From Aeromicrobium sp. (GTDB taxonomy: Bacteria > Actinomycetota > Actinomycetes > Propionibacteriales > Nocardioidaceae): DNA of 32,361 nt. Each line of letters opens with the position of its first letter. Within the stretch, counting starts at the first letter, position 1. This document shows positions 30,515-32,361 of the stretch, piece by piece. The stretch spans positions 1-32,361 of the forward strand of contig JAOPWZ010000126.1 in the NCBI GenBank assembly GCA_025965435.1, in the 5' to 3' direction. The notes below the pieces were generated by a model. The model saw only the letters and a list, made by a program, of their open reading frames with translations, was not told the DNA's origin and did no database searches. The position numbers and the translations under genes are program-made.

Positions 30515-30934
30515 TCAGCGGACCGTCCGCGGCCCGAGATGCCACACCCGGCCACCGAGGCCGACGACCCAGGGGCGCTGCTGCGGACGACGGTCCCTGG
30601 CCCACGTCGTGCGGCACCGGTAGACGCGCTCGACCGCCCGGATCGAGGCCAGTGGCTCCGGCAGCGGGCCGTCATCGGCGACCAGGAAGTCGACGACGTC
30701 GTCGTGCGCGCATCCTCGCCGTTCGTGGCGGCCGGCCCAGGCGTCGAAGCGATCGACGAGATCATCGACCTCCCGCAGGCCCGGGACCGCTGCGACCGCC
30801 TCGCTGCGCCGCTTGGTCCGCAGGACCCGCGTCGTCAGCTCGGCGGACCAGGGATCGAAGCCGTCCGGCACCTGCCCGCGCAGCAGCGACTGCAGGACGT
30901 GCTGCTGGCGGCGCTCGAGCTCCTGCCGGCTCAC
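30515..30934 (-). CDS. small partner protein of the DUF692/MNIO operon, SCO6045-like
   Basis: This 139-residue soluble protein has no membrane segment. The N-terminal half (RQELERRQQHVLQSLLRGQV, PDGFDPWSAELTTRVLRTKR, then VPGLREVDDLVDRFDAWAG) resembles, from memory, a Streptomyces family typified by SCO6045 that also neighbours a DUF692 gene. I could not test this. It may play the part that DUF2063-type proteins play for other DUF692 enzymes, binding the substrate peptide. It is the third gene of a minus-strand operon and overlaps the enzyme gene by 4 bases (ATGA). The C-terminal third is Arg/Trp-rich (RCRTTWARDRRPQQRPWVVG). Function is inferred only from position. Confidence 0.7.
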   Translation of the reverse strand: MSRQELERRQQHVLQSLLRGQVPDGFDPWSAELTTRVLRTKRRSEAVAAVPGLREVDDLVDRFDAWAGRHERRGCAHDDVVDFLVADDGPLPEPLASIRAVERVYRCRTTWARDRRPQQRPWVVGLGGRVWHLGPRTVR

Positions 30935-31809
30935 GACGTCACCCGGGGACGCTGCACAGCCCGCCGCACCCGCGCCAGCTCCGACCTCACGATCTCGGCG
31001 TCGACGTCGGTGTCCCGCTCGAGGAGGACCGGAGGACCGTCGCGCCCCAGCAGGTCGACGACATGTGTGAGGAGGTCGAGGACGTCCTCGGTCATGTCAT
31101 GGGCGTGCGTGTCCCAGTAGACGCCCGACGGATCGGTGAAGCCGCCCGCCACGTGGACGTACGCCACGTGATCCAGCGGCATGCGGTCGAGCTGCTCGCG
31201 CGGGTCGCCGCCCAGCGCGGAGCACGTCGCGTGGAGGTTCGCGACGTCCAGCAGGACGTAGCAGCCGGTGGCCTGCGTGAGCGCTGTGAGGAACTCCGGC
31301 TCGTCCATCGACGACTCGGGCCACGCGAGGGTCGTGGCGATGTTCTCCAGCGCCAGGGGGACGGGCAGTCGCGCCTGGGTCGTCCGGACGTTGTCGACCA
31401 GCACGGCCAGCGAGTCCGGGTTTCGTGCCGCGGACACGAGGTGCCCGGCCTCCAGGACGTCGTCGTGGAGCGCATCCGTGCCCGCAGCGGGCCGGCCGGC
31501 CCGCACGAAGGCGACATGCTCGCTGACCAGGGGAGCGCCCATGGCCGTCGCGAGGGCCCCCAGCCGGTCGATCCGGTCAGCATCCGGTGCCGCCCCGCCG
31601 GCGAGGCCCAGGGTGACCCCGTGCGGGACGACCGTGAGGCCCGAGCGGATCGCCTCGGTCAGGGCGGCCGGGAGCCCGCCGGGCGACACGTTCTCCGCGA
31701 CGACCTCGGCGAACCGCATGCCGCCGCGGGTCTGCTCCAGCAGCTCCTCGGCGATGCCGGGACGCCAGCCGGCGCCGACCCCGAGACCGGCCAGCGGTGA
31801 GCGGGGCAT
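30931..31809 (-). CDS. DUF692 (UPF0276) family multinuclear non-heme iron enzyme
   Basis: This 292-residue TIM-barrel protein belongs to DUF692, now called the MNIO family. Its known members (MbnB, TglH, ChrH, BufB) oxidise cysteine-containing peptides using two or three iron ions. Likely metal ligands are visible in order: His63 (VPHGVTLGL), Glu97 and His98 (VSEHVAFV), Glu155 (LALENIAT), Asp188 (YVLLDVANLH), His219 (YVHVAGGF), and Asp233 and His235 (YWDTHAHD). The first-gene stop and this ATG overlap (TGATG), and the last 4 bases overlap the partner gene. The preceding gene encodes a Cys-rich tail peptide, a candidate substrate. The family is secure; the substrate is inferred from context. 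Confidence 0.92.
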   Translation of the reverse strand: MPRSPLAGLGVGAGWRPGIAEELLEQTRGGMRFAEVVAENVSPGGLPAALTEAIRSGLTVVPHGVTLGLAGGAAPDADRIDRLGALATAMGAPLVSEHVAFVRAGRPAAGTDALHDDVLEAGHLVSAARNPDSLAVLVDNVRTTQARLPVPLALENIATTLAWPESSMDEPEFLTALTQATGCYVLLDVANLHATCSALGGDPREQLDRMPLDHVAYVHVAGGFTDPSGVYWDTHAHDMTEDVLDLLTHVVDLLGRDGPPVLLERDTDVDAEIVRSELARVRRAVQRPRVTS

Positions 31810-32060
31810 CAGCCGCTACCGCCGCCGCAGCCACCCCCGCCACCGCAGGAGGAGCCTCCGCCGCACGAGCTGCCGCCGTCGTGGCCGCCCGAGGAGCCGC
31901 CGTCGCCGCCGCCGGCCCAGTAGGCCCCGCCTCCGGCCGCACCGTACTCACCGGACCGCCGCCGACGCTTGCGGGTCGACGAGGCGGGGGACCGCAGGAG
32001 GCACGTTGCGACCACCGCGACGACGATGGCGACGCCGAGGACGACGAAGGTGATGACCAT
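31809..32060 (-). CDS. membrane-anchored Gly/Ser/Cys-rich peptide, candidate MNIO substrate
   Basis: This 83-residue protein has an N-terminal membrane helix (residues 2-22) and a basic stretch (RKRRRR, 30-35). A low-complexity tail follows that ends SSCGGGSSCGGGGGCGGGSG, with cysteines at 66, 72 and 78, six residues apart. The ATG at 32060 has a strong GGGAGG ribosome site. Its stop overlaps the ATG of the DUF692 enzyme by one base. Gly/Cys-rich tails on small membrane proteins next to DUF692 genes occur in actinomycetes (TIGR04222-type proteins, from memory), but the TIGR04222 domain itself is not evident here. Cytosolic or outside placement of the tail is uncertain; the positive-inside rule puts the tail's basic start in the cytosol. 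Confidence 0.8.
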   Translation of the reverse strand: MVITFVVLGVAIVVAVVATCLLRSPASSTRKRRRRSGEYGAAGGGAYWAGGGDGGSSGGHDGGSSCGGGSSCGGGGGCGGGSG

Positions 32061-32180
32061 GAGAACCTCCCGATCGGGCGGAACCGGAGTCCGTCGACGC
32101 TGACGTGACGCGGAAATGGATCGTCTCAGATGAATGGATGTGGGGGAAGAGGGGACTCTGGGGATCAATGCCGACGTGAG

Positions 32181-32235: not shown

Positions 32236-32361
32236 ATGGCCAAGATCATCTACACCCACACCGACGAGGCGCCCGCACTGGCGACCTACTCGTTCCTCCC
32301 CGTCATCGAGGCCTACGCCTCGACGGCCGGCGTCGAGGTCGAGACCCGCGACATCTCGCTG
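32236..32361 (+). CDS. icd: NADP-dependent isocitrate dehydrogenase, monomeric type (N-terminus only)
   Basis: The first 42 residues ([20 protein letters not shown], then [22 protein letters not shown]) are the characteristic N-terminus of the monomeric, roughly 740-residue NADP-dependent isocitrate dehydrogenase. It converts isocitrate to 2-oxoglutarate and makes NADPH. Substrate-binding positions in [13 protein letters not shown] are part of the family signature. GGAGGAG lies 11 bases before the ATG. The rest of the gene lies beyond the window. It is divergent from the MNIO operon. Confidence 0.95.

Follow-up and report, generated by a model that had tools for sequence, protein, structure and literature searches.

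Among the proposed substrates of MNIO enzymes, which are described as preferring cysteine, are TIGR04222 proteins, membrane proteins of actinobacteria that end in a Gly/Ser/Cys tail (Antoine et al. 2025; PMC12452194). The tails of these proteins are predicted to be periplasmic, the C-proximal Cys is missing in more than a quarter of them, and many TIGR04222/MNIO clusters seem to be without a partner gene (PMC12452194). In the bufferins and oxazolins, the substrates carry Sec signal peptides, and some bufferins have lipoprotein signal peptides (PMC12452194). Lipid-anchored MNIO products are represented by the DAG-RiPPs of the ChrH subfamily, in which the substrate is recognised via a C-terminal motif and its N-terminal part is variable (PMC12636315).

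The locus compared with these systems here lies in a window of 32,361 nucleotides, the whole stretch of DNA that was analysed, from Aeromicrobium sp. On its minus strand, a peptide gene is followed by a DUF692/MNIO enzyme gene and then by a partner gene, with overlaps of 1 and 4 bases:

31809..32060, minus strand: 83-aa putative MNIO substrate peptide, with a helix at residues 2–20, a basic patch at residues 23–35 and a Gly/Ser-rich tail with Cys 66, 72 and 78
30931..31809, minus strand: 292-aa DUF692/MNIO enzyme (Pfam PF05114), with predicted Fe ligands aligned to 3BWW and TglH
30515..30934, minus strand: 139-aa helical protein, predicted partner of the PME-type 2 kind, whose relatives' domain is fused to or just downstream of MNIO (model pLDDT 83)
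32061..32130, minus strand: upstream block (promoter or leader) including a GGAGG ribosome site, from an alignment of 6 cassettes

The favoured reading, with a probability of roughly 0.55, is that these genes form a minimal MNIO modification cassette, in which a helix-anchored, cytoplasmic Cys tail would be oxidised by the enzyme and its partner and remain membrane-tethered, probably binding copper. Membrane substrates of this kind have been proposed before in a larger form; the peptide here is a stripped-down version that has no TIGR04222 part. Like TIGR04222 systems, it belongs to the Actinomycetota and combines an adjoining MNIO, a predicted PME-type 2 partner and a C-terminal Gly/Ser/Cys tail. 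The Ser/Gly-rich C-terminal region with Cys, present in the window peptide, is a feature of TIGR04222 proteins, though not a strictly defining one. The order of substrate, MNIO and partner in a three-gene operon is shared with the bufferins and oxazolins (BufABC, HvfABC). Unlike the bufferins, however, the window peptide lacks a basic n-region such as Sec signal peptides have, no DUF2282 or Sec-type precursor is present, the partner has no DUF2063 match and the enzyme scores under the BufB cut-off. As in the DAG-RiPPs, the product is predicted to be kept at the membrane, but by a helix rather than a lipid anchor. The original prediction, which is partly supported as a whole, was aware of no characterised precedent for this arrangement; none was found characterised, although similar-tailed membrane substrates (PMC12452194) and lipid-anchored products (PMC12636315) have been proposed or described.

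The overlap sequences, TGATG (1 base) and (G/A)TGA (4 bases), are the same in 6/6 Aeromicrobium cassettes, and the coordinates first assigned to the three genes are right. In the alignment, a block of about 50 nt upstream of the peptide gene is kept across the six cassettes, the sixth (G023) being gapped there. A 24-base core of this block, with up to 3 mismatches allowed, occurs as one copy, at the cassette, in 5/49 Aeromicrobium genomes; no regulon of the element emerged, as the core was not found outside the cassettes in the 49 genomes at the same tolerance. The GGAGG ribosome site before the peptide start at 32060 is kept in 6/6 cassettes, and a longer 146-aa peptide starting at 32249 was ruled out because the conserved site precedes 32060. 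A chance or mis-called open reading frame was likewise ruled out by the ribosome site, the conservation, the coupled overlaps and the proximity of Cys-tail peptides to MNIO genes. The cassette appears to be a discrete module, since the same site between mdh and its divergent neighbour is empty in a complete relative (G034; locus L161), where the mdh start and this neighbour are 212 bases apart, compared with 1827 in the window. The divergent neighbour resembles isocitrate dehydrogenase.

The enzyme is present in 6/49 Aeromicrobium genomes, the source genome included, and the peptide and partner profiles each find the same six, so the trio is all-or-nothing (Fisher p 7e-8, a value that ignores relatedness). 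Of the 37 genomes with a rated completeness of 90% or more and contamination of 5% or less, five carry the peptide and partner. Small edge errors occur in profile A1, where the L011 row is without its first Met and the L013 row has two additional residues. Within the family, few genomes have an MNIO gene (22/341); the share is higher in the class (94/394).

The peptide consists of MVITFVVLGVAIVVAVVATCLL, followed by a stretch with RKRRRR and finally by the Gly/Ser tail with three Cys; a fourth, Cys 20, lies at the end of the helix. No Pfam or NCBIfam model matched the 83-aa peptide or the 139-aa protein above cut-off. A filter for one helix and a Gly/Ser/Cys tail gave 20 matches in the 578 kb lying no more than 1.5 kb from an MNIO gene; 460 kb farther out and 110 kb from other loci gave none. 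One of these matches (L123) was judged to resemble the end of a longer protein, and the peptide of L107 was missed. The short peptides themselves, with that of L107 counted, number 20, from 19 loci; in each, a single helix at the N-terminus is combined with basic residues and a tail rich in Gly, Ser and Cys. Six are from Aeromicrobium, nine from another genus of the same family (g7; eight loci), four from another family (f21) and one from a further family (f7).

Within the tails of these 20 peptides, the residue after Cys is Gly in 74/87 instances and Ser in 13/87, and a spacing of 5 or 6 separates successive Cys in 46/67 cases. In 2000 shuffles, the Cys-Gly share reached at most 0.63, compared with 0.85 observed, and the spacing share at most 0.27, compared with 0.69, kinship being ignored in both comparisons. 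The trio occurs in three gene orders, in different lineages. The order peptide–enzyme–partner is found at 6/6 Aeromicrobium loci, and enzyme–partner–peptide at six of the eight g7 loci with a peptide, the partner not being found at the other two (L107, L108). The f7 locus and three of the four f21 loci have the order enzyme–peptide–partner; at the fourth f21 locus, which has masked bases nearby, the partner was not found.

MNIO/DUF692 membership of the enzyme follows from its match to Pfam PF05114 (MbnB_TglH_ChrH; 210.7 bits, cut-off 25; 3.1e-62). In TglH, iron is bound by H71, H107, E151, D184, H216, E258, N187, D229 and H231 (PMC10880893). All nine ligands have counterparts in the window enzyme, eight by direct alignment to TglH and H63 via 3BWW, which bears out the ligands expected from the start. 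The predicted Fe ligands are H63, H98, E155, D188, H219 and E264, together with N191, D233 and H235, and all nine positions are invariant in an alignment of 7 enzyme homologues. The best NCBIfam match is BufB (152 bits, under the cut-off of 310), and the ChrH model gives 38 bits against a cut-off of 600. Bufferin or methanobactin membership was rejected, as the scores fall under the model cut-offs.

An MNIO open frame was obtained at 137 of 139 non-duplicate loci (exceptions L044 and L081). In this survey, which is non-random in that its 75 Streptomycetaceae loci are the best matches of one scan, the partner domain shares an open frame with the enzyme at 69/137 loci, lies within 0.35 kb downstream at 50/137 (the window included) and was not found at 18/137. 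Because its relatives are fused to the enzyme or encoded just downstream of it, the 139-aa protein is assigned, on sequence grounds, as the predicted MNIO partner, in agreement with the role originally given to it. It lies after the MNIO gene and is without the DUF2063 signature, as in the PME-type 2 kind. A DUF2063 match was found in 4/47 partner relatives, at best 2.9e-4, and in none of these cases was it the window protein.

AlphaFold2 models had pLDDT values of 83 for the window partner and 85 for a Streptomyces relative. When one partner model was compared by Foldseek with 350,542 PDB chains, chain 7dz9_C of the MbnABC complex ranked first (E 1.0, not significant alone). In the second partner list, 8hci_A of the TglHI complex ranked second (E 1.8, not significant alone) and 7dz9_C ninth; 3DEE was absent from the lists of the partner models. 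The two chains were taken as MbnC and TglI, since in each entry the enzyme is found in other chains. The cassette resembles TglHI and MbnBC in combining an MNIO with a partner and conserving the iron ligands, and chains of both complexes rank first or close to it in the partner lists at E-values not significant alone, but the precursors differ. A comparison of the partner profile with PDB sequences gave nothing useful, and partner alignment A2, in which the L013 row is in the wrong frame, was left out of the conclusions.

Natural fusion of enzyme and partner into one open frame was seen at 62/75 Streptomycetaceae loci (L022–L098; for example, L047:3432-4796). Such in-frame partner domains, present at 69/137 loci overall, may explain why a partner seems absent from many Streptomyces clusters. 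An HvfBC fusion was used in PMC13419390. Neither the short form nor a natural MNIO–partner fusion appeared in the titles and opening abstracts of the open-access DUF692/MNIO literature searched, and the fusion passages of PMC12452194 describe neither.

In the favoured reading, the lone N-terminal helix of the 83-aa peptide would insert into the membrane and leave the N-terminus outside, and the Gly/Ser/Cys tail would be kept in the cytoplasm by the basic patch. The 139-aa partner would guide the enzyme to its substrate, and the enzyme, using its multi-iron site and O2, would oxidise the cysteines in the [SG]-C-[GS] motifs. Judging from knowledge of the family, the oxidation products would probably be oxazolone/thioamide or thiooxazole-type groups, and the final product a membrane-tethered, probably copper-binding tail at the inner face of the membrane.

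The positive-inside rule is a rule of thumb for the orientation of membrane helices. No Lys or Arg precedes the helix in 19/20 short peptides, and one does so in the remaining peptide, whereas the 25 residues after the helix hold 4–10 in all 20. The charge around the helix thus predicts an N-out/C-in orientation in 20/20, although the peptide of L107, with +5/−6 after the helix, gives a weak topology signal. By the positive-inside rule, these basic residues suggest that the tail is cytoplasmic, which is also the side on which an enzyme without a signal peptide should work. The 'surface-tethered' product initially envisaged is therefore not favoured. On this prediction, the tail would act as a metal buffer in the cytosol, as distinct from a ligand at the cell surface.

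The strongest rival, though still an unlikely one, keeps the same chemistry but moves the tail across the membrane once it has been modified in the cytoplasm. The product would then be a metal ligand tethered at the surface, as has been put forward for TIGR04222 proteins and in the original prediction. The predicted periplasmic location of TIGR04222 tails and the Sec signal peptides of bufferins and oxazolins (PMC12452194) argue for this rival. It has to contend with the basic residues between helix and tail and the 0–1 Lys/Arg before the helix in all 20 short peptides. Applied to 57 longer Cys-tail proteins, the same charge test divides them: 21 favour the outside, as this rival would have it, against 30 inside and 6 ties. 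The outcome varied with the number of helices detected, proteins with at least four leaning outside (19/33) and those with two or three leaning inside (20/24). Given this mixed result, the contrast in topology between short and long forms rests on the prediction in PMC12452194, and a firm claim that the tail flipped from outside to inside was reduced to a possibility.

A second rival, rated slightly lower still, makes the peptide a membrane dock, or an iron or copper donor, for the enzyme, the true substrate being encoded elsewhere. The original expectation that the peptide is conserved beside the enzyme holds at 6/6 Aeromicrobium cassettes, but four g7 loci (L099, L100, L101 and L103) have retained a same-clade enzyme, and neither peptide nor partner was found near it. 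These four, together with L129, are the same-clade enzymes without a nearby peptide that speak for this rival, as do the Streptomyces MNIO–partner fusions without a nearby Cys tail. At L129 and L143, enzyme and partner are present and the peptide was not found. A mechanical filter found no Cys tail within 2.5 kb at 60/137 loci, 37 of them enzyme–partner fusions; it misses at least L106, L107, L128, L136 and L142, where a tail is present, and some loci end early. Such a tail need not accompany an MNIO with a partner, given the loci without one, which include four from Streptomyces (L047, L077, L089 and L027) where a 259–315-aa, 3-helix protein without a Gly/Cys tail adjoins the fused enzyme–partner. 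Against a dock or donor stand the fixed Cys-Gly/Ser pattern and spacing, the all-or-nothing trio and the MNIO preference for Cys stated in PMC12452194. The flanks of the four g7 loci resemble those of L107 and L108, which carry the peptide.

In methanobactin-type logic, a leader is removed. Release by a protease of the modified Gly/Ser/Cys tail as a soluble metallophore, with the helix acting like a leader, has this precedent and is nevertheless improbable, as neither a protease nor an exporter is encoded within the coupled trio and 19/20 short peptides have no basic n-region.

Returning to the membrane-tethered, inward-facing tail, its relation to the TIGR04222 proteins can be traced in part. 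None of 18 short peptides scanned, the window peptide among them, matched TIGR04222 at E ≤ 1 (of the 20, those of L107 and L110 were left out), whereas 10 of 11 longer Cys-tail proteins scanned matched above cut-off, the exception being that of L145. A TIGR04222 protein of similar layout occurs in the same order (L016, 118 bits). Hydropathy gives the short peptides one helix, in contrast with the several transmembrane segments of TIGR04222 proteins, and their tails are predicted inside rather than outside as in PMC12452194. A TIGR04222 protein encoded elsewhere in the source genome was considered as the true substrate and rejected: the sole protein matching at E ≤ 0.001, of 604 aa (L018:6019-7833; G000:C117), is encoded on a different contig from the MNIO. 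This protein has a poly-Gly end and no Cys in its tail; the source genome is 59% complete, and further TIGR04222 genes may be missing.

In an enzyme tree of 63 rows, the enzymes with short peptides fall in two clades. The first, to which the Aeromicrobium enzymes belong, comprises 20 rows, 15 with a short peptide and 5 without (support 100/99), and the second 5 rows, four with a short peptide and one without (support 100/96). The second is nested inside a clade of 12, the other enzymes of which adjoin either the L145 protein or proteins that include five TIGR04222 matches. Since its enzyme clade is nested among TIGR04222-linked enzymes, the f21 short peptide is best read as derived by reduction from the long form. 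A bolder and more tentative proposal, held with less confidence than the cassette itself, is that Actinobacteria at least twice reduced an MNIO substrate to a helix and a repeated [SG]C[GS] tail on the cytoplasmic side. The result would be a class of ribosomal peptides that, once modified, are never exported but stay tethered to the membrane for good as an inward-facing metal buffer, possibly a mirror of the outward TIGR04222 tails.

With three coupled genes and an 83-aa putative substrate, the cassette offers a very small system for asking how MNIOs act on actinobacterial membrane substrates, a question left open by PMC12452194. Some loci hold more than one Cys-rich candidate beside a single MNIO. 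Two different short Cys-tail peptides stand in tandem at L106, the g7 locus with two copies, and L127 carries two Cys-tail proteins, one of 309 aa with multiple helices and one of 137 aa with 3 helices, together with a Cys-rich open reading frame of 65 aa that has no helix.
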